A DNA stretch of 21,597 nt from the IMG/VR virus record IMGVR_UViG_3300025000_000461, positions 1 to 21,597 of that record; one strand, 5' to 3'. Both the position numbers and the translations under genes were made by a program. The stretch is from a virus. Below the pieces are notes generated by a model, which was not told the DNA's origin, did no database searches, and saw only the letters and a list, made by a program, of their open reading frames with translations. Positions 1,420-15,968 of this stretch are shown piece after piece (within the stretch, counting starts at the first letter, position 1; each line of letters begins with the position of its first letter).

Positions 1420-2877
1420 ATGACCATCCGCCCCCTTCCCATAGGCAAGGGCGTCACGCTTGACGTTGACGATACCACGGCCAAAGACGGCAGCGCCATA
1501 TCCTTCATCAACGGCTATCTTGATCGCGGCGGGGCTTTCCGCACTGTGCCGGGGCATGAACTGTACGCAGATACCGGTGAAGGTGGGGCGAAGACGTGGG
1601 CTTTTTTCTGCACGAATCACACTCGGCTGTTCGTGGTAGCCGCTGGCAGGATCTGGCAGCAGACTGCACCCGATGCCGCACTGGAGGAGATAACTGGCGC
1701 TACGTTTGACGCTGATGCGATACCAACTTTTGCGGAGAATGGCGATAACGTGTTCTTTGCCGCTAACTCTAAGATACACAAGATTACCGGCCTCACGGCA
1801 GCAGATTTAGGTGCGACTTCCCCTGTGAACGTGACAAGCCTAGCGTATATCGGCGGGTATCTCATGGCAAAGGGTGACGATGCTTTGGGCGCGGTTGCCG
1901 GTGACACGCACTACAGCGATGACAAAGACAACAGCTACGCTACGTGGGAGGTCTACAACAACGAGTCCCGGCCCGACGCCTTGCAAGCCTTGATCGTCGC
2001 GTATGAGCAGATTTACAACATCGGCGCTCAGACGGTAGAGGTGTCATACATCGATGGCACTGTCCCGTTTTCAGTCAACAAGAATGCAAGCCAGCAGTTT
2101 GGTACTCCCGCCGCTGGTTCATGTGCGTTTGACGGTGAAAACATCTATTACATTTCGGTTGTGGCCGGTGCGCGTAAGGTTGTGCAGCTCAAGGGTGGCG
2201 GATCTCCCCAAATTGTTTCCTTCCCGGTGGACATCCCGATAGAGGCGTTTGAGCGGGTAGACGATGCTTTCGGCTTCATCATGGCCTTTCGGGGGCAGAA
2301 CGGCTATGCAATCACTTTCCCGACCACTAACGCCGTGGTGGATGAACAGTTTTACGAGACGATCACCCTTTTCTACCATCTGCAAACCAAAGCCTGGATC
2401 ATCCTTGGCAAATGGGATGCAACCAATGGCGTTTATGGCGCATACCGTGGCAATTCCTTTACCTACGCTGAGCCGTGGGGTTTGCGGCTGATTGGTGGGC
2501 GTGACGGCAAGATTTACAAACTGGTAGAGCCGAGCGAGACGGCAGAAGAGCCCGTATTCGTCCACAGGTGGCGCGACAACGGCAAGAAGGAGTGGAAGCC
2601 GGGGCGCACTATCAACTTAGGGCTAACAGGGCAGTACGGTACGTTTCCGGTCACTAGGCAGAACGGTCTATACCGCAGCCGCCAAAGCGAGTTCATTTAC
2701 TCCGACCTTTCCGACGCTGGCGAGATATTCCGCGCAGCAGTGAGGACAGGACATATCACATGGGGCGCTGTCCACCGGCAGAAGCGGTGCAACTGCTACC
2801 GCTATGACGTGCGGAGAGGTAAGGCGGGATTCGTGCTAAACGGCGTGACTGAAGAATTTGAGGGGCAGAGCAACTAG
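1420..2877 (+). CDS. P22 gp10-like packaged DNA stabilisation / tail hub protein
   Basis: This 485-residue product has repeated beta-blade-like segments with aromatic endings and an early segment on an output-like pattern (FINGYLDRGGAFRTVPGHELY), as in P22 gp10 relatives. Gp10 plugs the portal vertex together with gp4 and the tail needle and retains packaged DNA. I chose ATG 1420, which follows GGTGGTG by 5 nt. An in-frame TTG at 1402 would add six residues but overlaps the upstream gene and has no site of its own. The order gp4-like then gp10-like is the main support, with sequence character second. Confidence 0.8.
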   Translation: MTIRPLPIGKGVTLDVDDTTAKDGSAISFINGYLDRGGAFRTVPGHELYADTGEGGAKTWAFFCTNHTRLFVVAAGRIWQQTAPDAALEEITGATFDADAIPTFAENGDNVFFAANSKIHKITGLTAADLGATSPVNVTSLAYIGGYLMAKGDDALGAVAGDTHYSDDKDNSYATWEVYNNESRPDALQALIVAYEQIYNIGAQTVEVSYIDGTVPFSVNKNASQQFGTPAAGSCAFDGENIYYISVVAGARKVVQLKGGGSPQIVSFPVDIPIEAFERVDDAFGFIMAFRGQNGYAITFPTTNAVVDEQFYETITLFYHLQTKAWIILGKWDATNGVYGAYRGNSFTYAEPWGLRLIGGRDGKIYKLVEPSETAEEPVFVHRWRDNGKKEWKPGRTINLGLTGQYGTFPVTRQNGLYRSRQSEFIYSDLSDAGEIFRAAVRTGHITWGAVHRQKRCNCYRYDVRRGKAGFVLNGVTEEFEGQSN

Positions 2878-2887
2878 GGAGGCAGTC

Positions 2888-3055
2888 ATGGGACAGGAAG
2901 TAATTGCAGACAAGATAATTGACATGCTTATTGGAGAAGGGATGACCATTGACGGTGCAGCGGCGTTTTTGCGGGAATTGGCTGGCAAGATAATAGCCCC
3001 CGTCCACGCGGAGATGGATGCAATGGTTGCAAAGCCCTTGACCAAAGAGGCGTAA
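2888..3055 (+). CDS. small helical protein of unknown function (55 aa)
   Basis: ATG 2888 follows GGGAGGCAGTC, a good ribosome-binding site, and the stop at 3053-3055 abuts the next ATG. The 55 residues are predicted to be mostly amphipathic helix (VIADKIIDMLIGEGM, then AAAFLRELAGKIIAPVHAEMDAM), with no obvious membrane segment or cysteine. It sits between the tail hub and the fibre-like gene, so a small tail or head-plug component or an assembly helper is possible. I do not recognise a family. Confidence 0.75.
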   Translation: MGQEVIADKIIDMLIGEGMTIDGAAAFLRELAGKIIAPVHAEMDAMVAKPLTKEA

Positions 3056-4054
3056 ATGGCTGGAGAGAACCCCCAAACTACGCTGCCGCCCGTACCCAGA
3101 GAGCCGTTAATCGACTCACGCGGCGGCATGTCTTCTCAGTGGGAACGGTGGCTGCAACAGGTGCAGAGGGTGCTGTCTTTTTCAGGTGGCATAGCATGGG
3201 GGATCATCAACAAAGGCAGTTCAAAACTGTCGGACATAGAAAACCGCACCCATGCCATGTTGCAAAGTATCCTCGGATGGAGTTCCGGCACCGATACCAC
3301 TCAGAACAAGCACATTTCCAACGCCGATGGAAAGGTTTGGCAGGATCACGTCGAAATTACCAATGGCAACCCACACGGCACCGACCATGCCATGTTGGAC
3401 GGTCTTGAGGATGACGACCACACTCAATATCTGTTATTGGCCGGGAGGGCAGGTCAGAGGGCTGTAACACCACTGATTCTTGGCACGGAAACTGACAACA
3501 CAACTTTTGAAGCAGACGGGACTGCTGTTTTCAACGGTGCGGCTACGGTCTGGAAAGACGTGATGTTTCCGATGGCCCCGCCAAAAACCACCGGAGCGGG
3601 GAATCCCACGCTTGTCACATACAACGGCAACCTTCGGGGCTACGCCTTTGCTGTTAACGATGTCCACGATTTCGACCCTCAAGAGCAGGAGCACGATTCG
3701 AAGGTAGGGTCTACAGCGACATTCCACATCCACTGGCTAAGTAGAAGCAATGACGCTTCAGATAGAACGGTTGGATGGGAATTGGAATACGATGTCGAGC
3801 CTGGAAGCGGGGCGCTTCCTGCAACCGTCACAGCAAGCATTGAGGCGGTCATTCCGGCAAACAGCGATGTTAACACGGTTCAGCGGACGGACATAACCAC
3901 ATTTACCGTTGTAGCCATTGCGCGGCTTGTAGGGGCAAGGATCAAGCGCGTAGCAAGCACCGGCACGGCCCCCTCCGTTGACCCCGTTTTAAGGGCTTTG
4001 CACTTTCACTATGAGCTGGATACTGTGGGCAGCAGACAGATATTGACCAAATAG
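3056..4054 (+). CDS. fibre-like virion protein in the tail-needle position (332 aa)
   Basis: Residues 1-45 are Pro-rich then helical (GGMSSQWERWLQQVQRVL), a pattern seen at the virion-binding ends of short tail proteins. Residues about 100-145 contain GNPHGTDHAMLD and DDDHTQYLLLAGRAG, the histidine-rich DHTQYL motif common in tail fibres and appendages. The C-terminal half is beta-rich and includes TFHIHWLSR, VGWELEYDVEP and LHFHYELD, resembling a beta-sandwich domain seen in phage appendages. It occupies the place of the P22 tail needle gp26 but is not an obvious homologue of it. Function as needle, plug or head fibre is inferred from context. Confidence 0.75.
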   Translation: MAGENPQTTLPPVPREPLIDSRGGMSSQWERWLQQVQRVLSFSGGIAWGIINKGSSKLSDIENRTHAMLQSILGWSSGTDTTQNKHISNADGKVWQDHVEITNGNPHGTDHAMLDGLEDDDHTQYLLLAGRAGQRAVTPLILGTETDNTTFEADGTAVFNGAATVWKDVMFPMAPPKTTGAGNPTLVTYNGNLRGYAFAVNDVHDFDPQEQEHDSKVGSTATFHIHWLSRSNDASDRTVGWELEYDVEPGSGALPATVTASIEAVIPANSDVNTVQRTDITTFTVVAIARLVGARIKRVASTGTAPSVDPVLRALHFHYELDTVGSRQILTK

Positions 4055-4063
4055 AGGTGACAC

Positions 4064-4867
4064 ATGGGGCTTTTTGACGCGATTGACAGTTTTCTAGGGC
4101 TGTCCGGTAAAGACGATGCGCTGGAGCAAAACCAGAACGCAATTGATGCTCAAAAGGAAATGGCCGGTGCGTCTAACCAGACCATCCGGGACATGTACAG
4201 CACAGGTCGGCAAGACCAGATGCCGTTCATTACCCCCTCGCTCTCGGCTCTGCCTATGTACCAGTCTGCTATCCTGGGCGGGCCGGTCGAGTATTCCGAC
4301 CCTCGCTATCAGCGAATTACATCTTTTGATCCCGACTACGCCGCCGCTATGTCGAGCGTGTACGGTGACAGGCCAGCCCAAAGCGGGAGCGTGTTTGCCA
4401 ATCTGCGGAACCCTTCTGCACAAGGGACGCGGCCAACGCTACAACTGTACCGCGCCCCTGATGGATCGTACACTGACAAGCCGCCGCAGATGACCGCGCA
4501 ATTCAACCTGCAAGAAGATCCCGGTTTTCAGTGGCGGAACAAGCAGCTTGATAGGTCGTTGCGTTCTCTCGGCAGAAACAACAGCACCTACGGGATGCAG
4601 GCAAAAGCCGACTTCGCCGGGAACGAGTATGACAGAGGCGTCAATCGCCTCGCCACTCTCGCAGGCTTTGGCAGCGGTACTAACAGCAACGTTGCGGCAT
4701 CCGGTAATAACGCGGCGGGCCAGATTGCAGGGGTCAACACCAACGCAGCAAACTCCCTTGGCAACCTGTACACGGCAAGGGGCGGTCTGTATACCGACTA
4801 TTCGCCACTGGCAATAGGGCTGGGCGCGGCATCGGCTGGCGCAGCTTATGGGGGGACGCCTAGATGA
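4064..4867 (+). CDS. putative DNA ejection protein (P22 gp7 position, 267 aa)
   Basis: ATG 4064 follows AGAGGTGACAC. The product starts with a short hydrophobic helix (MGLFDAIDSFLGL) and a Gln/Asn/Ala-rich helical segment. The middle is Pro/Tyr-rich, and the C-terminus is Gly/Ala/Asn-rich and weakly hydrophobic (AIGLGAASAGAAYGG). Small internal virion proteins released with DNA have this composition, and the gene is first of three coupled genes where P22 carries gp7, gp20 and gp16. No enzymatic motif is visible. The assignment rests mainly on gene order. Confidence 0.65.
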   Translation: MGLFDAIDSFLGLSGKDDALEQNQNAIDAQKEMAGASNQTIRDMYSTGRQDQMPFITPSLSALPMYQSAILGGPVEYSDPRYQRITSFDPDYAAAMSSVYGDRPAQSGSVFANLRNPSAQGTRPTLQLYRAPDGSYTDKPPQMTAQFNLQEDPGFQWRNKQLDRSLRSLGRNNSTYGMQAKADFAGNEYDRGVNRLATLAGFGSGTNSNVAASGNNAAGQIAGVNTNAANSLGNLYTARGGLYTDYSPLAIGLGAASAGAAYGGTPR

Positions 4868-6309
4868 CAGCACTAGACAGAGGATTTGACCGTCTTGCTA
4901 ACATTCTTATGCAAAATCGGCAAATGCAAGCGCAAGCGCAGCAGCAGGAGCGGGGCAACCGCCTTGCCGATCTGCAATACAAGCAGCTTCAGCGCGAGGA
5001 CGACTACCAGACCGGTTTGCAGGGGGCAATGTCTAACCCCAAGGGGCCGGTGTCCACCACAAGCGTGATTCCTGAAAGCCCGCGTCTCGGTCTGTCCATG
5101 TTGGCGGGACAAGCGCAGCCCCAGCAGTTTCAATTGGCGCAGGTTCAATCTTCCCCCATAGTGGCCGCTTACCGTGACGGCAGGGTGCAGACCACGACCA
5201 CACCGGGACAGACCCGAGCGCAGGCGGGGGCGGAATATGCGCTATCGCAGGGCAGGATTGATGATGCTGTCAAAATGTTCAGCGTCGATGATGCTGTAGC
5301 ACAGCTCCAGGCCAAGGGAGATTTGCAAGGGTATTACAAGGCAAAGCAGGAACTCGACCAAGGGAAGCAGTTTTTTGAAACCGTCAAGCCCTACACAAAA
5401 AACCCCGCCGCCATGAAGCAGCTTTGGCCGCAGATACAGCGCATGTTCCCCAACCAGACGGCGGGGATCAATCCAGAGGACATTCAAGACCGTGAAGGGG
5501 CGACCTTCATGCCGCTTGAGGTTAACGGGCAGATCATCCCCAACCGCGCCGTATACCACGACGCAGACGGCAGCATTAAGATTGTGGACACCACGCCAAA
5601 GGAACAGCCCGAAACGTGGGGCACGCCAGAACTCATGACCGTGGGCGGGAAAAAGGCGATGGTGCAGAAAAGCAGCCGGGGGCAGGTTAGGCCGGTGTTG
5701 CAGGATAACAGCACGACCGTCAAAGTGACCACAGGGGAGAAGAAGGAGCGGGACTTGCCAACCGGCATACAGGACAAGCTTTCGCAAAAACTGGAAATCT
5801 ACAATGATTGGTCAACCCTCAAAACCGGCTTCAAGCCTGAGTATATGCCAAAGACGGCGTTTAAGAATATCGGGGAGTTTCAGATCAACCTCAACAAGAT
5901 TTTTGGCAACAATCAGGCGGCTGTTGATTGGTGGACACAGTACTTTGACGCCCGCAACATCATCCTCAAAGAGCGGTCTGGCGCGGCAGTTATGGAGCCA
6001 GAGTTCAAGCGGTTTGAGCAGGGGACTATTGCGGCCAACACCAACCCGCAATCCGTCATCAACTACCTTGACCGCAGCGAGAAAAAGTACAAGCAGCATG
6101 TGGACTCTTACCTTGAAGCCAATAGAAAGAACCACCCCGAAGCTGTGAGCGCGTTTGAAACCGCATACGGTTATACACCAACAAAGGCTAAGGCGTCTCC
6201 CCCTCCTGCCTCACCATCTGGCCCTAAACCCGGCTCAGTGGTTGATGGTTACAGGTTTAAAGGTGGCAACCCAGCCGATAAAGCCAACTGGATGAAGGTG
6301 AAACGCTAA
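4864..6309 (+). CDS. putative DNA ejection / internal virion protein (P22 gp20 position, 481 aa)
   Basis: The start overlaps the previous stop by ATGA. Residues about 5-50 form a Gln- and Arg-rich coiled-coil candidate (ILMQNRQMQAQAQQQERG). The central region is helical and charged, with no enzymatic motif. The C-terminus has a Pro/Ser/Lys linker then a compact end motif (VVDGYRFKGGNPADKANW). I have seen this kind of Gly-Gly-Asp/Asn-Pro plus Trp terminal motif at the ends of other large phage virion proteins, where it may be a capture or packing signal. Its place between two other coupled genes supports an internal protein ejected into the host. Confidence 0.65.
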   Translation: MTALDRGFDRLANILMQNRQMQAQAQQQERGNRLADLQYKQLQREDDYQTGLQGAMSNPKGPVSTTSVIPESPRLGLSMLAGQAQPQQFQLAQVQSSPIVAAYRDGRVQTTTTPGQTRAQAGAEYALSQGRIDDAVKMFSVDDAVAQLQAKGDLQGYYKAKQELDQGKQFFETVKPYTKNPAAMKQLWPQIQRMFPNQTAGINPEDIQDREGATFMPLEVNGQIIPNRAVYHDADGSIKIVDTTPKEQPETWGTPELMTVGGKKAMVQKSSRGQVRPVLQDNSTTVKVTTGEKKERDLPTGIQDKLSQKLEIYNDWSTLKTGFKPEYMPKTAFKNIGEFQINLNKIFGNNQAAVDWWTQYFDARNIILKERSGAAVMEPEFKRFEQGTIAANTNPQSVINYLDRSEKKYKQHVDSYLEANRKNHPEAVSAFETAYGYTPTKAKASPPPASPSGPKPGSVVDGYRFKGGNPADKANWMKVKR

Positions 6310-8165
6310 TGGGCGGGCCTTGGGAAAAATACGCTGACACAGCCCCCAAAAAGCCGTGGGAGGCATACGCGGCAACCGGCACCCCCTCCTACGACAACCG
6401 CGTGACCGACAGATCGGAGATAGAGCGCAAGCGGCGGGAGTTTGTGCAAGGGACAGGGGAACTAGAGACGCGGGTGAAGGATGTAGCCAACCAAGCGTTT
6501 AACCCCAACGTGCAGATTCCCGCAGCGGACGGAGTGGGCGACTTCATGGGCCGCGTTCTGCCGCAGTCGATAACCCAGCTCGGCCCGAAGATGGTTAAGG
6601 GCGTCTATGAGGGCATCAAGGGGCAGACAGACCCGCTTGTAAGGTCGCTGTCCTCTTTGCAGCCGCAGGGCTTGCCGGGGCCACAGATGGAGCGCAACGC
6701 GGGGCAGACGGTGCGGGGACTTGCAGAGGCAATGACGGCCCCCACCGGCTTGATGGGCGCAGACCGTGCTAAGGAGGCGTGGCTCACCGACCCTGCGGGG
6801 AGTGCGCTTGCTGTTGCGCCTACTCTCAAGGCGCTGGGGAGTGGTGTTAAGGCGCTTCCAAAACCCAAAGGGTCAACTTTGGAAGGTGTTATAGACACCG
6901 GCATAAACAAAGGCATACGCCCCGGCATCGAGGGCAACCGCACGTTTGCGCAGTCCACGCAGTACCACAAGAGAGCACAGCAAGCGGTTAAAACTATCAT
7001 AGATAACCACGCTCAAGGCGCGTTGAAGTTGACCGATGAATTTGGGGAAGTACAGCCGGGGTTACCCAAGAACTTGAGGCAGTTTAGCCAAGCCATTGAC
7101 CAATCTAAGCGCAACGTCTACGAGCAATATAACCAAATGGCGGTGCAATCCGGCGAAGCTGGGGCAGTTGTGGATCTTTCCCCCATACCGGCAGAATTGA
7201 TGACGGTAGCCAACAACCGCGCCTTGCAAAAAGCTGCTCCAGACGTTGCGGCATATGCCAGAAAACGAGCAGAGGCGTTTAGCGGCGGCAATGCTGTAAC
7301 GGATGGTGTCACCTCGCGCAGGGCTAACACGTTCACGGCTCAGGAGGCCCAAGAAGCGATAGCGATGTACAACCAGAGTTTGGAAGCGTTCAACAAAAAC
7401 CCCTCTTATGACACAGCTTCTCGCGCTTACATTGATTCTTTGGTGGTCAACAACCTACGGAAAGGGCTTGACGCTTCCATAGAGAAAGCCACGGGGCCGG
7501 GATACCAAGCGTTGAAAAATCAATACGGCGCACTCAAGACTATAGAGAAAGATGTTTCTCGCCGCGCCATTGTTGACGCTAGGAAAAACCCAAAGGGGCT
7601 GCTTGACTTTTCGGATGTGTTCAGCGGTGGGCAGGTTGTTAGCGGCCTTATCAGCATGAACCCTGCGACTGTTGGAACCGGCATTGCATCAAAGGTCATT
7701 GCCAACTTTTACAAGCGGCTGAACGATCCTAACAAGATTGTTGGCAAGATGTTCGACCGCGCTGGGAAGATGTACACGCCAAAGCAAAGGGCCGAGATGC
7801 AAGCACCTACACCGCAAGCGCCGCAAAGCGTGGTCAATCCTATGGCCGGTAAGGTTAACACGGGTGGCATCACTCAGCCGGGGCCAGTGGTCAGACGCTC
7901 AGACATGGGTGTCAATCAAGGTGGCATTGTACAGCCGGGGCCAGTGGTTCAGCGCATGGCGGGGATTAACAGTGGGAACCTAGACGCGCCAGCCCGCAAC
8001 CAGTCTAGCTTTAACTTGCTTAAATCGGCATCGGTTACTGCTAAACAGCCAGTGTCCACTTGGCGGGAGTTTGTAGGCTCAAAAATGAGCCAATATATGA
8101 AAGAAGAAGGGTCACACGGCGCGGCAATGAAACGTCTTGGTAAAGAATGGAAAGAGCGTAACTGA
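6309..8165 (+). CDS. putative DNA ejection / internal virion protein (P22 gp16 position, 618 aa)
   Basis: The TAATG junction couples this gene to the previous one. The N-terminus has a doubled short motif (GGPWEKYAD, then KKPWEAYAA) typical of large phage internal proteins. Residues about 60-190 include hydrophobic Ala/Gly-rich stretches (GSALAVAPTLKALGSGVKAL). Residues 210-450 are predicted long helices. A weakly hydrophobic segment near 455-480 (VVSGLISMNPATVGTGIAS) could contact membrane during ejection. Residues about 517-548 carry a 19-residue tandem duplication. No lysozyme or transglycosylase active site is evident. It is the last and longest of the ejection set. Confidence 0.65.
   Translation: MGGPWEKYADTAPKKPWEAYAATGTPSYDNRVTDRSEIERKRREFVQGTGELETRVKDVANQAFNPNVQIPAADGVGDFMGRVLPQSITQLGPKMVKGVYEGIKGQTDPLVRSLSSLQPQGLPGPQMERNAGQTVRGLAEAMTAPTGLMGADRAKEAWLTDPAGSALAVAPTLKALGSGVKALPKPKGSTLEGVIDTGINKGIRPGIEGNRTFAQSTQYHKRAQQAVKTIIDNHAQGALKLTDEFGEVQPGLPKNLRQFSQAIDQSKRNVYEQYNQMAVQSGEAGAVVDLSPIPAELMTVANNRALQKAAPDVAAYARKRAEAFSGGNAVTDGVTSRRANTFTAQEAQEAIAMYNQSLEAFNKNPSYDTASRAYIDSLVVNNLRKGLDASIEKATGPGYQALKNQYGALKTIEKDVSRRAIVDARKNPKGLLDFSDVFSGGQVVSGLISMNPATVGTGIASKVIANFYKRLNDPNKIVGKMFDRAGKMYTPKQRAEMQAPTPQAPQSVVNPMAGKVNTGGITQPGPVVRRSDMGVNQGGIVQPGPVVQRMAGINSGNLDAPARNQSSFNLLKSASVTAKQPVSTWREFVGSKMSQYMKEEGSHGAAMKRLGKEWKERN
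7864..7951 (+). repeat. 57-bp-period duplication inside the 618-aa ejection protein gene
   Basis: Two copies begin at 7864 and 7921 with GTGGCATnnnnCAGCCGGGG and continue through CCAGTGGT. They encode GGITQPGPVVRR and GGIVQPGPVVQR, 19 residues apart. The Pro/Gly-rich units lie in a low-complexity linker before the C-terminal helical end. The copies differ at a few bases, so this is a diverged tandem duplication. Confidence 0.8.
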
Positions 8166-8240: not shown

Positions 8241-8318
8241 ATGATGAAGATGCCGAAGGGAAAGCCGATCAAAGGAAAGCCGCCTGTTAAAAAGGGTGAA
8301 AAGAAGGGCTGTAAGTAA
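8241..8318 (+). CDS. lysine-rich 25-residue peptide upstream of holin
   Basis: ATG 8241 follows AAAGGAGACATACC, one of the best ribosome-binding sites in the window, and TAA overlaps the next ATG by one base (TAATG). The peptide has about ten lysines plus Pro/Gly repeats (KGKPIKGKPPVKKGEKKG) and one cysteine, C-terminal -Gly-Cys-Lys. Comparable tiny basic Pro/Lys/Gly peptides occur in phage late regions, but I know of no function. It may bind nucleic acid or membrane, or act as a translational leader for the holin gene. Confidence 0.65.
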   Translation: MMKMPKGKPIKGKPPVKKGEKKGCK

Positions 8319-8578
8319 TGCCAGCGCCCGACTACAGTTGGGTAGCCAACCCCGATGTGATAACCTCGGCTATCCAACTGCTAGCCGCCGCTGTAGCGGG
8401 CGCGGCGGCTCTTTTGGGGGCAGTACTCACCTTACTCGGCGGTGTCTTGGCGTGGATATGGAACAAGACCGATAGCAAAATTGACCGGATAGCCACAAGT
8501 TTGGAGGCGTTGACGCTCACTACGTCAACTGAACTTGCTACCATAAAAGCCAAATGTGAAGCTAATCACCCCTCTTAA
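8318..8578 (+). CDS. holin candidate, single transmembrane segment (86 aa)
   Basis: This 86-residue protein has one strong Ala/Leu/Gly-rich membrane segment at residues about 18-48, ending in a Trp pair (WIWNK). A charged helical tail follows with heptad-like spacing (DSKIDRIATSLEALTL). One TM plus a coiled-coil tail is a common layout for small phage holins or holin-associated membrane proteins. It lies several genes upstream of the endolysin, which is unusual but compatible. The start overlaps the stop of the lysine-rich peptide. It could instead be an accessory membrane protein. Confidence 0.65.
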   Translation: MPAPDYSWVANPDVITSAIQLLAAAVAGAAALLGAVLTLLGGVLAWIWNKTDSKIDRIATSLEALTLTTSTELATIKAKCEANHPS

Positions 8579-8617
8579 CCACCCCTTTTGCCGGAGAACA
8601 CCGGCCAAGGAGACATA

Positions 8618-10543
8618 ATGAACCGCTTTCTCGCCTATGTCCTTATAGCCGCCTTTCTCACGGCTTGCGGATCTCCCCAACCGGCCAACGCTGCGACAAA
8701 CGCGCAGTCCATTCAGTTCCTTCTATCCCAAGTCCGGCAGGTATCCGGCCCCCTCTCTGGTGGCAAGGTTTACGCATACGCCGCTGGCACCACCACCCCA
8801 AAGACGATATGGACCGATAGGGGCAAAACCACCCCCGCCGCGAATCCCTACACGCTGGACAGCAACGGGACGGCCCAGCTTTACGGTGATGGACTCTACC
8901 GCTTTGTCATCAAGACTTCCACCGGCGTTACCGTCTACGACCGCGACAATATCAGCATCAGGGACGCTCTGACCTACGGCATCCCCGCCGAGGATTACGC
9001 GACTCTTGCCCTTGCCGACGCTGCCGCTGTCTCCGCTGGCGCGCAACTGGTGATTTCCACCGTCTACACCACCGTCCCGGCTACGCTGTCTGCCCCAGCT
9101 GTTAAGATCCTCCCCGGTGGCAAACTCAACGGCTCCGGCAGCGTGGCTATCACGGGACCGTTTGAGGGGGTAGATGGCTGTTTTGGGACAAACCAGACCG
9201 TTACAGGGCTGAAAGAGGCGCGCCCTGAGTGGTGGGGGTATGACGTTAAAAAGGCCGCTGATTCCACAGACACCTCCAATGATATCTATACTGGCGGGAA
9301 GGTTTCAATCGGGACTGGCAATCACGCGGTCAATAGCACGGTGCAAATAGACAACGACTCCATTTACAATATTTTGGGGGTGACTTTAGAAGGAACAGGG
9401 AAGCAAGCTGCAACACTTTCATTTGCCGGTCAACCCGCTGGGCAGAATGGGGTGGAGTATATCAGCCCGATCTTTGCAGGCATAAACGATTTAGGTGTAA
9501 GGGAATCCAAAGGTGCTGGGGTTCGACTCGTAGGCTATAACACCAACCCTTCTAATCCGAGTTGGAATCATTTCAACATGGATAGAGTTAGATCCAGTTT
9601 CAACACCGGAGCCGGTGTGGATGCGGATCGTGGCTTCATGGGCAGCTTTAACCAGGTTTTCACGTCACACAATGGGGGCGGAGGGTTTAAGTTCAACGGA
9701 TTTCATACCTCCCTGCACTTGAACAACAGCTATGCCGCCAGCAACACGGGTAACGGATACACTCTGCTTGACACGACCTATTCGGTTTTGAGCGCGTGTG
9801 CTGCCGACACAAACAGTCAACACGGTTACAAAATCTCAAAAAGCTCAACCATAGTCATGAATGGTAGCGGGGCAGAGAGCAATGGTCGTTCTGCTGTAGC
9901 GGTGGAGTCGAGCACAGCCCTTGGTCAAAACTACCCGGTTACAATCAACGGGTTACTGGCGTTCAATAATAACACTGCCAATGCGGGTTATCCCAATGCA
10001 ATATGGGTAAAGGCCTCCGATTCCGTACCTAGCGTGGTCCTAGCTAAAGGGTGTCGCTCACACAGTCCGGCAAACCCGACAGTAGACGCTTTGGTTGACG
10101 GGGTTGGAGCTTACTTGGTAGACGAGTACAACTCGTTTCCAAATGGCGTGACTTCGGCTAACGGCGGCTATATACACCACGTCCCGTTGACCAAGTACAT
10201 TCACGGCTTATCTGTCACGGGTGCAACAACGGTATGTACTCTGAAAAGCCCGCAAAACCAGACCGGAACTTTCGGCGGTGAAGTGCTGATCTTGGCTCGT
10301 AACAATGCCGCCAATAGTAACACGGGAAATACGGCATTATATAAATTGTTGGTCAATCGAGGGGCAGGCGGCGACCAAGTAGTTTTGATGGCGAGCACAG
10401 GACTGGTCAGCGGCGCAGGTGCATCATTTCCAAGTTTTACCTGGACACTATCGGCAAACGCCTTGGTTGCCACGCCGATAGGATCAACGTCTGGCACCTT
10501 TTACTTTGAGATTTTAACGCAAGGATTTGTGAAGACAGAGTAG
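8618..10543 (+). CDS. tailspike-family beta-helix protein with a lipoprotein signal peptide (641 aa)
   Basis: ATG 8618 is preceded by AAGGAGA, and no in-frame ATG, GTG or TTG lies near the domain start downstream, so the leader is part of the product. Residues 1-17 are a classic lipoprotein signal: Arg3, a hydrophobic core and lipobox LTAC with Cys17 followed by Gly. Residues about 28-110 form the virion-binding type module (GPLSGGKVYAYAAGTTTPKT), followed by a linker with PEWWGYD. The rest is a parallel beta-helix of pectate-lyase type (for example NNSYAASNTGNGY). The second tailspike at 10736 has the same module but no signal. Surface lipoprotein or processed virion protein are both possible. 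Confidence 0.85.
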   Translation: MNRFLAYVLIAAFLTACGSPQPANAATNAQSIQFLLSQVRQVSGPLSGGKVYAYAAGTTTPKTIWTDRGKTTPAANPYTLDSNGTAQLYGDGLYRFVIKTSTGVTVYDRDNISIRDALTYGIPAEDYATLALADAAAVSAGAQLVISTVYTTVPATLSAPAVKILPGGKLNGSGSVAITGPFEGVDGCFGTNQTVTGLKEARPEWWGYDVKKAADSTDTSNDIYTGGKVSIGTGNHAVNSTVQIDNDSIYNILGVTLEGTGKQAATLSFAGQPAGQNGVEYISPIFAGINDLGVRESKGAGVRLVGYNTNPSNPSWNHFNMDRVRSSFNTGAGVDADRGFMGSFNQVFTSHNGGGGFKFNGFHTSLHLNNSYAASNTGNGYTLLDTTYSVLSACAADTNSQHGYKISKSSTIVMNGSGAESNGRSAVAVESSTALGQNYPVTINGLLAFNNNTANAGYPNAIWVKASDSVPSVVLAKGCRSHSPANPTVDALVDGVGAYLVDEYNSFPNGVTSANGGYIHHVPLTKYIHGLSVTGATTVCTLKSPQNQTGTFGGEVLILARNNAANSNTGNTALYKLLVNRGAGGDQVVLMASTGLVSGAGASFPSFTWTLSANALVATPIGSTSGTFYFEILTQGFVKTE

Positions 10544-10735: not shown

Positions 10736-12775
10736 ATGGCAAGATACGCGCAGAGCATAGATTTCATACTGGCACAGGTTCGCACCCTATCCGGGCCGGT
10801 TGTGGGTGGTCAGGCGTTCTTTTACGCCGCTGGCACGACAACGCCAAAGACCATCTGGCTTGACCGTGGCAAGACCACTGAAGCCGCCAACCCTTACACG
10901 CTGGGGGCGAATGCCACGGCGCAGCTATTTGGTGACGGTCTTTACAGGGTGGTGCTGACCTATCCGCCAACTATCATACCTGGACAAGACCCGATACCGG
11001 GCGCGACAATCCCTGGTGGAGACATCGACAACATTGCGTTTAAGGACGCTTCCGGACTTGCCTATGACGTGGCAGATTACGCTTCCCTTGCGGCGGCATG
11101 TGCTGCGCTCAATGGCACCGGCGCGACGCTCCAATACAGCACTGACCAGACGCTAGCCGCAAACCTCACCACAGACGTTGAACTTGTGCCGGTTAACGGC
11201 GCGGTTATTAATCATGGCGCGTATACCATAACCTACTCCGGCACCCCGGCGCGGTGGCCGTTGGCTAAAATCTTCAACGGTACGGGGGCCATTTCAGGGC
11301 CGAAACATGTTTACCCTGAGTGGTTTGGTGCGGTGGCCGAGGACGCCTTGGTTAGTATAAGCAAAGCTATTGCAGTGGTGGCCAACGGCGGGGCCGTAGA
11401 GCTCACGGCTGGCAACTATCCGATTTCCGCAGTCATAGACTTCCCCGAAACCAGTACAAAGGTCAAATTGTTCTCTAAAACGGGTTCCGCAATAACCGTT
11501 GCAGGGACACACGATTGCATCGACCTAACGGCGCAAAATGAAAACTATGGTGGGCACACTCTTGAAGGGCTGACGCTTACCGGGCCTAACAACTACTACG
11601 CTGGACAGATGACTATAAGCCAAGGGTCCGGCGTAAGAATGCAGAGGGCAGCGGGTGACACTACCAACGTAAATACCGCGTACAACACGGTAATCCGAGA
11701 CTGTGTTATTCAAGGGTTTAAGCAAGGGCTTAGATTGCGCAGCGCAATAAAGGTCCACGTCGAAGGGAAAACGTTTCTTAGGTTTAACCGTTACGGGGTG
11801 CTTTTTGACGGCGGTGCAGCAAATGCAAACAACTTCAATGGTGTGACTATCAGCATGAATGACCTAGCTGGCGTTCAGTCTGCCGGGACCACCGGAGGAA
11901 CGCTTACAGACGCATCTAGTAACGTTTTTAGTGGTTGTCTGCTGGAAAGCAACCACGCTTACGGTGCAACAGGCGGGATAGCCATATACCTAAACCGCTC
12001 TTATGATTTTGTTTTTGATGGATGCTACACGGAGGACCATCAATACAGCGTCTATTTAACCAATGGGGCAAGCGGAAACAAATTTATAAATCAGCGCACA
12101 AATAAAGGCCCCGCAGGTCTTGATGGAATTCTAATTTCTGGTGCTCTTTGCTTTGGTAATATTTTCCAAGGATGTAAAGCTGCGGGCTCAACTATCACTG
12201 ATTCTAACGTAGAAATAGATTCTGCGGATTCGCTGTATAACCAGTTTCTTGACTGCGAAGGTTTCAACTTCAACCCCGCCGTTGTACTAAGAATGCCATA
12301 CATACGCAACATGAGACCCAATGCAGCATCACAAGGAGGTGTTGGAATAATTTCGATGCCTCCGCATGGGTTTGTTGACAACGTTATCGAAGGGGTGGGA
12401 GCAGCACAACTTGAGGGGATCGGAACGGCGACTGCGACTCTTCATTGTAGAGGAATGGGGGAACTTACCCTCGGCGCGGTGGTTGCTGCTGCCGGGTCTA
12501 ACACAACCATAACGACGCTTGAAGGTTTGACACCTCACTCCATCCTTGTTTTGTGGAATTATCAGACAACCCGCACGGTCACAATAAAACACACTTCAGG
12601 GACCGGCAATATTGTTCTCAAACCGACTCTATCTCCAACAATATCTGTAAACGACGTTACGCATACGGGAACGCTCGCATACACCGCAGATGCAGTAATG
12701 TCACAGTATGGGCAGATGATTGTTTTCTATGTGACCGCTTACGGTAGGGCGTATGAAATTGGCCGCAACTTTTAA
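10736..12775 (+). CDS. tailspike, beta-helix receptor-binding protein (679 aa)
   Basis: The N-terminal module (residues about 5-85) has AQSIDFILAQVRTLSGP and FYAAGTTTPKTIWLDRGKT, clearly homologous to the first tailspike and to head-binding modules of podovirus spikes. A linker with DVADYASLAAACAALN and YPEWFGA leads to a pectate-lyase-like parallel beta-helix (residues 190-560), and a C-terminal beta region ends in YEIGRNF. It starts directly with the virion module, without a signal peptide. Spikes of this type bind or cut surface polysaccharide, but catalytic residues cannot be assigned by eye. The region about 11700-12300 looks more AT-rich than the ends, which suggests receptor-domain exchange. 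Confidence 0.88.
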   Translation: MARYAQSIDFILAQVRTLSGPVVGGQAFFYAAGTTTPKTIWLDRGKTTEAANPYTLGANATAQLFGDGLYRVVLTYPPTIIPGQDPIPGATIPGGDIDNIAFKDASGLAYDVADYASLAAACAALNGTGATLQYSTDQTLAANLTTDVELVPVNGAVINHGAYTITYSGTPARWPLAKIFNGTGAISGPKHVYPEWFGAVAEDALVSISKAIAVVANGGAVELTAGNYPISAVIDFPETSTKVKLFSKTGSAITVAGTHDCIDLTAQNENYGGHTLEGLTLTGPNNYYAGQMTISQGSGVRMQRAAGDTTNVNTAYNTVIRDCVIQGFKQGLRLRSAIKVHVEGKTFLRFNRYGVLFDGGAANANNFNGVTISMNDLAGVQSAGTTGGTLTDASSNVFSGCLLESNHAYGATGGIAIYLNRSYDFVFDGCYTEDHQYSVYLTNGASGNKFINQRTNKGPAGLDGILISGALCFGNIFQGCKAAGSTITDSNVEIDSADSLYNQFLDCEGFNFNPAVVLRMPYIRNMRPNAASQGGVGIISMPPHGFVDNVIEGVGAAQLEGIGTATATLHCRGMGELTLGAVVAAAGSNTTITTLEGLTPHSILVLWNYQTTRTVTIKHTSGTGNIVLKPTLSPTISVNDVTHTGTLAYTADAVMSQYGQMIVFYVTAYGRAYEIGRNF

Positions 12776-12841: not shown

Positions 12842-13263
12842 GCCGAATAGAAACGCTAGAGCCGGACTTTCGGCCCCAAGTTGAGGAGTTGATTAAGCGC
12901 ACCGAAGCCGCAACCAACCGGCGATGGGGCATTAGTGACGCAAAGCGCACAATGGCTCAACAGCGGGCGATATTTGCACAGGGCAGGACTACCCCCGGCA
13001 AGGTGGTCTCCAACGCCAAGCCGGGGCAATCTGCGCACAATTTTGGCTATGCGGTGGACCTGTGGCCGATGAAAGCAGACGGCAAGAATTTTGATTGGGG
13101 GGCTAGCCGTAAGTTGTTTGACCAGATGGGGGCCATTGCGGAGTCGTTGGGCTTGGAGTGGGGTGGGCATTTCAAAAGCATCTTAGATTTACCTCATGTG
13201 CAGGCTGGGAAGTGGCGGGAGCGGCAAGCAATGTGGAAAAGAGGGGAGATTAACATTGCGTAG
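12838..13263 (+). CDS. M15-family peptidase endolysin (L-alanyl-D-glutamate peptidase type)
   Basis: This 141-residue enzyme has the zinc peptidase signature SAHNFGYAVDLWP at residues 65-77, with His67 and Asp74 as ligands. A C-terminal LPH gives His120 as the likely third ligand. Upstream are GISDAKRTMAQQRAIFAQGR and TTPGKVVSNAKPG, as in phage M15 endolysins and CwlK-like peptidases. These cut the L-Ala/D-Glu bond of peptidoglycan stem peptides, in the periplasm, after holin action. No signal peptide or wall-binding domain is present, so export depends on the holin. The spanin-like gene follows with overlap. Confidence 0.88.
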   Translation: MSRIETLEPDFRPQVEELIKRTEAATNRRWGISDAKRTMAQQRAIFAQGRTTPGKVVSNAKPGQSAHNFGYAVDLWPMKADGKNFDWGASRKLFDQMGAIAESLGLEWGGHFKSILDLPHVQAGKWRERQAMWKRGEINIA

Positions 13264-13513
13264 GGCGCTCATTTCATTGGCCCTTTTTCTCCCCGGCTGC
13301 GTTGGCCTCGGCGCCCGTGAATCCTCCGTAATGGCCCCTAACGGCCAAATTTACCGCATCCGGTGTCAGAGCGACGGCGTGGTGGACTACAGGGACACGG
13401 CGGTGCAGATCAAGGTGGACAATCGGGGGCCGCTTGGCACAGTGTGGGCTGTCGGCGTGGCGAGTCTTGGGAAGGTTTACGACAAGGTAAAGGGCGAGGA
13501 GGTGGCAAAATGA
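13256..13513 (+). CDS. small lipoprotein, spanin candidate (85 aa)
   Basis: TTG 13256 is preceded by GGGGAG and opens a frame with Arg2-Arg3, a hydrophobic core and lipobox LPGC (Cys15). The mature part is 70 residues with Cys37 and a weakly hydrophobic stretch (PLGTVWAVGVASLG) near residues 59-72, then a charged end. A short outer-membrane lipoprotein directly after an endolysin is where phages place o-spanins or single u-spanins. If the C-terminal stretch spans the inner membrane, this would be a u-spanin. No inner-membrane partner gene is obvious. Overlap with the endolysin end is 8 nt. Starts upstream would bury the signal peptide. Confidence 0.7.
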   Translation: MRRALISLALFLPGCVGLGARESSVMAPNGQIYRIRCQSDGVVDYRDTAVQIKVDNRGPLGTVWAVGVASLGKVYDKVKGEEVAK

Positions 13514-13671
13514 GCCGCTACTGTTCCTACATCATGGGGCAATGCCCCACAAACACCGTGCAAGAGTGCGCCAAACGTAACCCTGTGGAGTGCCGGAACT
13601 GTCGGCAGAAGAATGAGGCCGCGCAAAGGGAGGTGGCGAGTGATATTGACATGCGCCAAGTTATGTCTTGA
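13510..13671 (+). CDS. small cysteine-rich protein (53 aa)
   Basis: ATG 13510 overlaps the lipoprotein stop by ATGA. The 53 residues contain Cys5, 12, 20, 28 and 31, including CRNC, in a charged context, so a small zinc or disulfide-bonded knot is possible. The end overlaps the lipase gene by 32 nt. The frame is short, but the start coupling and GAGG upstream (AGGAGGTGGCAAA) support translation. I do not recognise a family. Confidence 0.6.
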   Translation: MSRYCSYIMGQCPTNTVQECAKRNPVECRNCRQKNEAAQREVASDIDMRQVMS

Positions 13672-14215
13672 CAGTTACGACGACTCCGCACAGGGCTTTG
13701 TCACAGTTGGCGATCTTAGGTACGGAGTGTTCCCCACTGAGCATGGAACCATTGTTGCCATACGCGGTACGGCAAATCTTGATAACTGGCTGACTGACGC
13801 CCACGCTTTCCCGGCGAGGTCATGCGGTGGGTATTTGGCCCACAAAGGGTTTATCCGCGCATTCCGAGAACTTTGCACCGGTGGTATGCCAACCATCAGA
13901 GGCGGCAACGTGATAGCTACCGGCCACAGCCTTGGAGGCGCGGTGGCAACCCTGTTGGCAGAGCACACCGGTTGCAAACTTGTCACGTTTGGAAGCCCTA
14001 GAGTATATTGGCGGTTTGGCAGTACACCTGTATTAGACCATGTCAGGATAGTTCGCGACGACGACCCCGTGCCAATGGTGCCGAAGTTTTTGTATAGGCA
14101 CCATTGTAAACCTGTATCTATACACGACAACGACTGCCACCTGTTACAAGTGAGCGACCATTTTATGTCTGCCTATGTCAAGGCCGTGGCAAACAAAACG
14201 CTTGTAGATACATGA
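13640..14215 (+). CDS. class 3 lipase, alpha/beta hydrolase (191 aa)
   Basis: The product has the nucleophile elbow GHSLGGA with Ser97, Asp142 within RDDDPVPMVP and His174 in SDHFMSAYV, the catalytic order and spacing of class 3 (Rhizomucor-type) lipases. The segment VAIRGTANLDNWLTD matches the family RGT-type oxyanion region, and TFGSPR is also typical. I chose GTG 13640, six bases after GGGAGG. The upstream ATG 13613 would add nine residues and lies deeper in the preceding gene. No signal peptide is evident, so action on membrane lipid from the cytoplasm or after holin release is inferred. It sits between lysis genes and a HNH gene. Confidence 0.85.
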   Translation: MILTCAKLCLDSYDDSAQGFVTVGDLRYGVFPTEHGTIVAIRGTANLDNWLTDAHAFPARSCGGYLAHKGFIRAFRELCTGGMPTIRGGNVIATGHSLGGAVATLLAEHTGCKLVTFGSPRVYWRFGSTPVLDHVRIVRDDDPVPMVPKFLYRHHCKPVSIHDNDCHLLQVSDHFMSAYVKAVANKTLVDT

Positions 14216-15296: not shown

Positions 15297-15968
15297 GTGA
15301 AAACGTACACAGTGCAGGAAATAAAAGAAATTCTTGATGTGCATGATAAGTGGTTGCATGACGAAGATGGCGGCGAGCGCGCAGACCTTCGGGGCGCAGA
15401 CCTTCGGGGCGCAGACCTTCGGTGCGCATACCTTCGGGGCGCATACTTTCAGCGCGCATACCTTCAGGGCGCAGACCTTCGGGGCGCAGACCTTCGGGGC
15501 GCAGACCTTCGGTGCGCATACCTTCGGTGCGCAGACCTTCAGGGCGCAGACCTTCGGGGCGCAGACCTTCGGGGCGCAGACCTTCGGGGCGCATACCTTC
15601 AGGGCGCATACTTTCAGCGCGCATACCTTCAGGGCGCAGACCTTCGGGGCGCATACCTTCGGTGCGCATACCTTCGGGGCGCAGACCTTCGGGGCGCAGA
15701 CCTTCGGGGCGCAGACCTTCAGGGCGCAAAATACGCTGACGAAGAAATGTTGGTGAAATACTTTTGCATTGGTCCCATGGGAAGTCGTTCCGATTACCTG
15801 CAAGTGTTCATTACCGACAAGCGCGTTGAACTGAAAACCGGTTGTTTCTGTGGTAGTTTGGAACAGTTCACCGAACAGGCGAGTGAACACATCATTGCAG
15901 AGCACCGCCAGAGCTATCTTGCGGCTGTGGAGTTCATCAAGACCATGGTGGCACCCAAGGCGGCATAA
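15297..15968 (+). CDS. pentapeptide-repeat protein (223 aa)
   Basis: GTG 15297 follows CCAAGGAGGGATAA. After a 28-residue helical head come 23 perfect pentapeptides (ADLRG, ADLRC, AYLRG, AYFQR, AYLQG, ADLQG) at residues 29-143, then an 80-residue globular tail with IGPMGSRSDYLQVF and GCFCGSLEQF. Repeats of A-(D/Y)-(L/F)-X-X fold into a right-handed beta-helix. Qnr and MfpA use that shape to mimic DNA on gyrase, but this tail family has no known function to me and gyrase action is only a possibility. The repeat DNA is nearly identical between units, which implies recent expansion. Confidence 0.85.
   Translation: MKTYTVQEIKEILDVHDKWLHDEDGGERADLRGADLRGADLRCAYLRGAYFQRAYLQGADLRGADLRGADLRCAYLRCADLQGADLRGADLRGADLRGAYLQGAYFQRAYLQGADLRGAYLRCAYLRGADLRGADLRGADLQGAKYADEEMLVKYFCIGPMGSRSDYLQVFITDKRVELKTGCFCGSLEQFTEQASEHIIAEHRQSYLAAVEFIKTMVAPKAA
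15381..15725 (+). repeat. 23 tandem 15-bp units encoding the pentapeptides
   Basis: The tract is 345 nt, exactly 23 units of GCAGACCTTCGGGGC with changes at a few positions (GCATAC, GGTGC, AGGGC, AGCGC, CTTTC). The variants recur with a period near 11 units (AYFQR at units 5 and 16), pointing to duplication of a larger block. Because the unit is 15 bp with no stop in any frame, all six frames stay open across it. Replication slippage would change copy number in-frame. Confidence 0.95.

Follow-up and report, generated by a model that had tools for sequence, protein, structure and literature searches.

An export-type signal joined to the head-binding domain of a podophage tailspike, and its recurrence among related phages

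Phages of one podophage group carry, on some of their tailspikes, a Sec-type signal fused exactly to the domain that attaches the spike to the virion. Here, we report this arrangement in TS1, one of two tailspikes encoded on a 21,597-nucleotide stretch of viral DNA (IMG/VR record IMGVR_UViG_3300025000_000461, positions 1 to 21,597; hereafter, the window). Leaders of this kind recur among related spikes and are constrained, and these phages bear signals on further adhesins as well. We tentatively read TS1 as a podophage tailspike of the virion type that is produced as a precursor for export and attached at lysis, a reading that sequence comparison favours but to which we give somewhat less than an even chance. 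The relevant features of the window, all on the plus strand, are as follows.

1420..8165, plus strand: Hc3-like connector, tail protein, and ejection-type proteins 5' of TS1 (phrog_578, E 1.2e-18)
8318..8578, plus strand: small membrane protein, 86 aa, directly 5' of TS1
8607..8612, plus strand: TS1 ribosome binding site AAGGAG (read from the sequence; L009, a relative without a leader, has a nearly identical stretch)
8618..10543, plus strand: TS1, tailspike with leader, 641 aa (100% identical in two further contigs)
8618..8692, plus strand: 25-residue TS1 leader MNRFLAYVLIAAFLTACGSPQPANA (n-region with Arg3, hydrophobic core, lipobox, c-region)
8657..8668, plus strand: lipobox LTAC (L14-T15-A16-C17; Cys17 codon TGC at 8666-8668)
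8684..8692, plus strand: signal peptidase I (SPI)-type A-N-A site, residues 23-25, abutting the module (similar site in 16/17 leaders)
8693..8968, plus strand: tailspike head-binding module, residues 26-117 (7eeq_A, 9vyg chains; phrog_26190)
9572..10024, plus strand: beta-helix region, residues 319-469 (PF13229, E 8.9e-5)
10205..10534, plus strand: C-terminal tailspike-like domain, residues 530-639 (6e1r_A tailspike, E 3.2e-13)
10736..12775, plus strand: TS2, second tailspike, 679 aa, with the TS1 module but no leader (50% identity to TS1 in the module)

TS1 starts at the ATG at 8618, preceded by AAGGAG at 8607-8612, and its leader is joined without gap to the module (ATNAQSIQFLLSQVR...) at 8693. 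The leader carries the marks of a bacterial lipoprotein signal, namely a charged n-region (Arg3), a hydrophobic core (residues 4-16), and a lipobox with the invariant Cys, followed by Gly18 and with no Asp at +2. Judged by a crude rule, only 0.17% of random N-termini matched in base composition would show a signal plus lipobox. The sequence-only reading had reported this lipoprotein-type signal (LTAC, Cys17, Gly at +2, Arg3), and it proved real. That reading had also held that the leader could not be skipped by a later start, and in-frame ATG, GTG, and TTG codons are indeed absent from the first 120 codons after ATG 8618, including the leader-module interval; the first start-like in-frame codons past 8618 are ATA at 8645 and ATT at 8711. 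A TTG in frame farther upstream (8588) lacks a clear ribosome site and is shared with L009. Absent from the earlier reading is the SPI-type site ANA-A, which places an A-x-A motif at the leader end, exactly at the module boundary. The leader is probably a functional Sec signal; the choice between signal peptidase II (SPII) and SPI is nearly balanced, with a slight lean towards SPII, and lipidation of TS1 is plausible.

The DNA around the leader holds a 9-base direct repeat, ACCGGCCAA (window 8600-8608 and 8680-8688), which flanks most of it and may be linked to the indel described below or may be due to chance. A palindrome, GCCGGAGAACACCGGC, at window 8590-8605, just 5' of the ribosome site and shared with L009, is a possible mRNA hairpin.

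TS1 is identified as a tailspike by homology. A profile of its module (A3) matched the "Tailspike head-binding domain" of 7eeq_A (E 2.2e-5), as well as tail spike chains of 9vyg and 9vyh, which bears out the earlier placement of the signal before a virion-binding module. The mid-region matched PF13229 at 22.6 bits, slightly below the curated cut-off of 25.9, and the C-terminal domain also resembles Acinetobacter phage tailspikes; a single-sequence AlphaFold2 model of TS1 (pLDDT 35) was set aside. TS2, likewise as described before, shares the module but has no leader and begins directly at it (MARYAQSID). In its homologous head-binding module, its gene position 3' of ejection proteins, and its C-terminal domain like that of tailspike 6e1r, TS1 is like podophage tailspikes (PDB 7eeq, 9vyg/9vyh), and it may share their right-handed beta-helix body. 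It is unlike them in its predicted cleavable Sec/lipoprotein signal before the module; the public phage homologues checked (L012-L017) begin at the module, without a leader. Being made without an export signal is a usual trait of tailspikes that TS1 lacks, but it is not a defining one.

The connector-to-spike gene order of the window is kept in relatives. The small membrane protein directly upstream (8318) is not linked to the leader, because it is also found before the leaderless spikes of L009, L211, and L212. Elsewhere in the window, a small lipoprotein-like open reading frame (ORF; MRRALISLALFLPGCVGLGAR...) follows the endolysin at 13256-13513, has a homologue at L065:17165-17410, and is a possible lysis lipoprotein. 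A class 3 lipase (13613-14215; PF01764, phrog_21992 esterase/lipase) lies in the late genes, adjoining the lysis region. At 15297-15968, a near-perfect short tandem repeat gives rise to a pentapeptide-repeat-like protein, and ORFs cross the repeat on both strands.

Across all loci surveyed, 17 of 109 distinct module-bearing ORFs had a Sec-type leader exactly at the module joint. These leaders start at a usable start codon 17-30 residues 5' of the module, with a clear ribosome site in most; leaderless module ORFs begin, with few exceptions, at the module itself. The leadered set includes other phages of the window's group and one integrated Nitrospirota prophage. An SPI-type site stands at the module's first residue in 16 of the 17 (ANA, AQA, AEA, ATA, SFA, AWA, AYA, TEA, GHA, ALA, SHA, and similar), the exception being L042 (AYP). 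A canonical lipobox occurs in about five leaders only (window, L020, L021, L033, and L038), with weaker Cys variants in L041, L042, and L026 and no lipobox in the remainder. The lipoprotein leader proposed by the sequence-only reading is thus present in TS1, but a leader is not peculiar to TS1 and, across the family, mostly lacks the lipobox. That reading would have been contradicted by a majority of close homologues beginning at the module; instead, about half of the closest module relatives are leadered. No leaderless spike with the same module was found in several leadered phages. A leaderless receptor-binding protein is possible in one of the leadered phages, G003, because another of its genes matches short tail fibre families. 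At L107:2926-3474, a leadered head-binding module of 182 aa stands without a spike body, and two more signal-bearing genes follow.

L009 is the closest relative by the Hc3 (head-tail connector) gene, with a protein 85% identical to that of the window; its spike has nearly the same ribosome site and upstream DNA, and begins MATNAQSIQFLLSQVRR directly at the module. The window spike therefore differs by one clean in-frame 72-nt block, which lies between the start codon and the module. The leader occupies exactly the spot of the initiator Met in leaderless relatives. The Hc3 proteins of L020, L021, and L033 are only about 39-40% identical to that of the window, yet their leaders (MKRFIAYLLITLALVGCGCPEPAQA, MKRFLASLLIAAFLAACGSPHPAEA, and MKRFLSLILIAFALTACGCPEPAQA, respectively) are homologous to the TS1 leader. 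Mapping the leader state onto a 27-module tree requires 7-8 changes, of which well-supported branches force at least 4; as read from this tree, the leader has been gained or lost repeatedly.

Comparison of the four homologous leaders (window, L020, L021, and L033) gave a dN/dS of about 0.14-0.33 where computable, indicating purifying selection. Cys17, Gly18, Pro20, Pro22, Ala23, and Ala25 are invariant, while the codons of Gly18 and Ala25 vary synonymously. The earlier suggestion that the leader is a tolerated oddity is weakened by a dN/dS below 1 and by recurrence. In the close group, leadered spikes have a mean of 4.8 cysteines per 1000 residues versus 11.6 in leaderless ones (p 0.0066, for related sequences, uncorrected for kinship, in a comparison made after the fact); over the whole survey, the difference is absent (p 0.71). 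Fewer cysteines in leadered spikes would be expected for folding outside the cytoplasm, and the close-group depletion is a hint of it.

Adhesins other than these spikes bear signals too. Collagen-like tail fibres with leaders were found in G003, G004, and G009, for example with MKRFCIYAALVLFVAFLTAQMIYGA fused before ATPIVPIATATRAGIVK; the leadered fibres tested (G003, G009) matched phrog_5073 with E values of 1e-33 to 1e-36. The following collagen-like tail fibres, from phages that also have leadered spikes, carry an SPI-type signal directly before the fibre N-terminus.

L065:11912-15571
L066:1-2475, minus strand
L067:3264-8732

Collagen-like proteins with signals are also encoded by G014 and G015. 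In the L107 phage, a tailspike of an unrelated family (phrog_7173, E 1e-14) bears a signal, as does a phrog_5939 tail protein of the L039 phage, whose spike is leaderless. Among proteins of at least 400 aa, spikes excluded, signals were carried by 4-6 of 56 in leadered phages versus 1 of 115 in control contigs; the lower figure follows from the signal rule, a crude one, and the upper includes two tail fibres that it missed and that were added by eye. Public phage relatives were not found by tblastn with a leadered tail-fibre N-terminus or with the small post-capsid protein, and a plasmid search gave no match.

Many relatives, and the window's own phage, encode small proteins of 100-140 aa with signals, either in or near the head gene cluster or ahead of the spike; six were scanned and had no family match. 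Examples are as follows.

L193:1544-1966, minus strand: the window's phage
L195:15379-15756
L068:1424-1816
L066:13603-13929, minus strand
L072:1015-1350
L199:1930-2265, minus strand
L203:13130-13483
L079:512-889

A genome was chosen from the phylum of G001, a Nitrospiraceae metagenome-assembled genome (MAG), and its 4.16-Mb contig carries an integrated prophage with a leadered spike bearing a Phage_depo_C domain. The prophage also encodes an integrase (PF00589), Hc3 (phrog_578), and a DNA ejection protein (phrog_598), and ties leadered spikes to at least one bacterial host group. A scan of genome contigs yielded one relative, and a Nitrospirota search yielded six genomes, mostly distant. In several phages and in the Nitrospirota prophage, the leadered spike lies 3' of the ejection-protein genes. 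No tyrosine integrase was found in the 42-kb sister contig of the window phage or in most relatives, which leaves a lysogenic role for TS1 unsupported.

We infer a route in which the leader would send TS1 out of the cytoplasm by Sec, late in infection. Signal peptidase I could then cut at ANA-A, giving the N-terminus ATNAQS..., or signal peptidase II could cut at Cys17, giving a lipid-tethered spike; mature TS1 would wait in the envelope and join virions when lysis mixes the compartments. We favour a virion spike, exported and then attached, because the head-binding module is retained and another module-bearing spike is missing from several leadered phages. An SPI cut would yield exactly the N-terminus of leaderless spikes (after Met loss), which is why lipidation is treated here as a possibility. 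Against the favoured reading, the lipobox in the TS1 leader would imply a membrane tether, awkward for virion attachment, and the leaderless TS2 could be the only virion spike of the window phage. In the main rival, which we consider rather unlikely, TS1 is cut by SPII at Cys17 and sits on the outer membrane as a lipidated exclusion or decoy spike, the role suggested by the sequence-only reading, with TS2 as the virion spike; its receptor-binding or polysaccharide-cutting domain would hide or destroy the receptor, so that superinfection is prevented and no progeny are lost to debris. The canonical lipobox with Gly at +2, the constancy of Cys17-Gly18 in four homologous leaders, and the leaderless paralogue in the same genome agree with such a role, for which the T5 outer-membrane lipoprotein Llp, whose gene adjoins that of the receptor-binding protein (PMC9586334), is a precedent. 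A spike outside the virion would have no need of the head-binding module, however, which is kept and conserved; most family leaders are without a canonical lipobox and finish at an SPI-type site, several leadered phages yielded no leaderless same-module spike, and Llp is small, whereas TS1 has 641 aa.

TS1 might instead not be exported in practice, its folding and assembly being cytoplasmic and its uncleaved hydrophobic N-terminus being tolerated or seating the spike in the tail. Known tailed phages assemble their spikes in the cytoplasm, and nothing else is seen to change where the leader comes and goes at its one joint. The explanation is made quite unlikely by the purifying selection acting on the leader, by the signal peptidase site that 16 of 17 leaders keep where they meet the module, by close-group cysteine depletion, and by signals on unrelated adhesin families of the same phages. 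It is very improbable that prophages express the leadered proteins for lysogenic conversion, as adhesins or capsule-modifying enzymes of the cell surface and not as phage spikes: one leadered spike does sit in an integrated Nitrospirota prophage, but the genes lie within the late structural cluster, 3' of ejection proteins, and the sister contig and most relatives lack a tyrosine integrase. The window phage is carried by metagenomic contigs only, as an assembly or gene-start artefact might be, yet an artefact is scarcely credible, since TS1 is 100% identical in two further contigs and its leader has homologues in independent phages and genomes.

Among known systems, T5 Llp is like TS1 in its phage-encoded lipoprotein-type signal and in its gene position beside a receptor-binding protein gene (PMC9586334). 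Llp is small, however, and acts on FhuA by jamming it from the periplasm, whereas TS1 comprises 641 aa and includes a domain for virion attachment. Rz1-type o-spanins resemble TS1 in that a short stretch containing Pro comes after a phage lipoprotein signal, but TS1 has a whole spike after the leader and no spanin ectodomain. The leader as an o-spanin remnant was accordingly dropped, since the spanin body is absent and the endolysin is followed by a small lipoprotein gene of its own. In being ligand-binding proteins with a signal peptide, the adhesins are like surface-displayed bacterial targets of diversity-generating retroelements (DGRs). Signal peptides are reported to be missing from phage DGR target proteins, although their bacterial counterparts have them (PMC6199706); the phage adhesins described here do carry such signals. 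The literature searched contained no report of signal peptides on tailspikes, an absence that is weak evidence.

In the usual view, tailed-phage virions are completed in the cytoplasm, ahead of lysis. This view is hard to square with an export-type signal that recurs, is under selection, and is joined exactly to the domain for virion attachment, and similar tags on several host-binding proteins suggest that in related phages the spikes are finished or put to use beyond the cytoplasm. It is possible, though doubtful, that Sec routinely secretes spikes and collagen-like fibres throughout this podophage group, which includes at least one Nitrospirota prophage, and that virions receive them extracytoplasmically, at or after lysis. 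Either spikes would be added to virions outside the cytoplasm, or these phages may reuse spikes as envelope proteins that control receptors.
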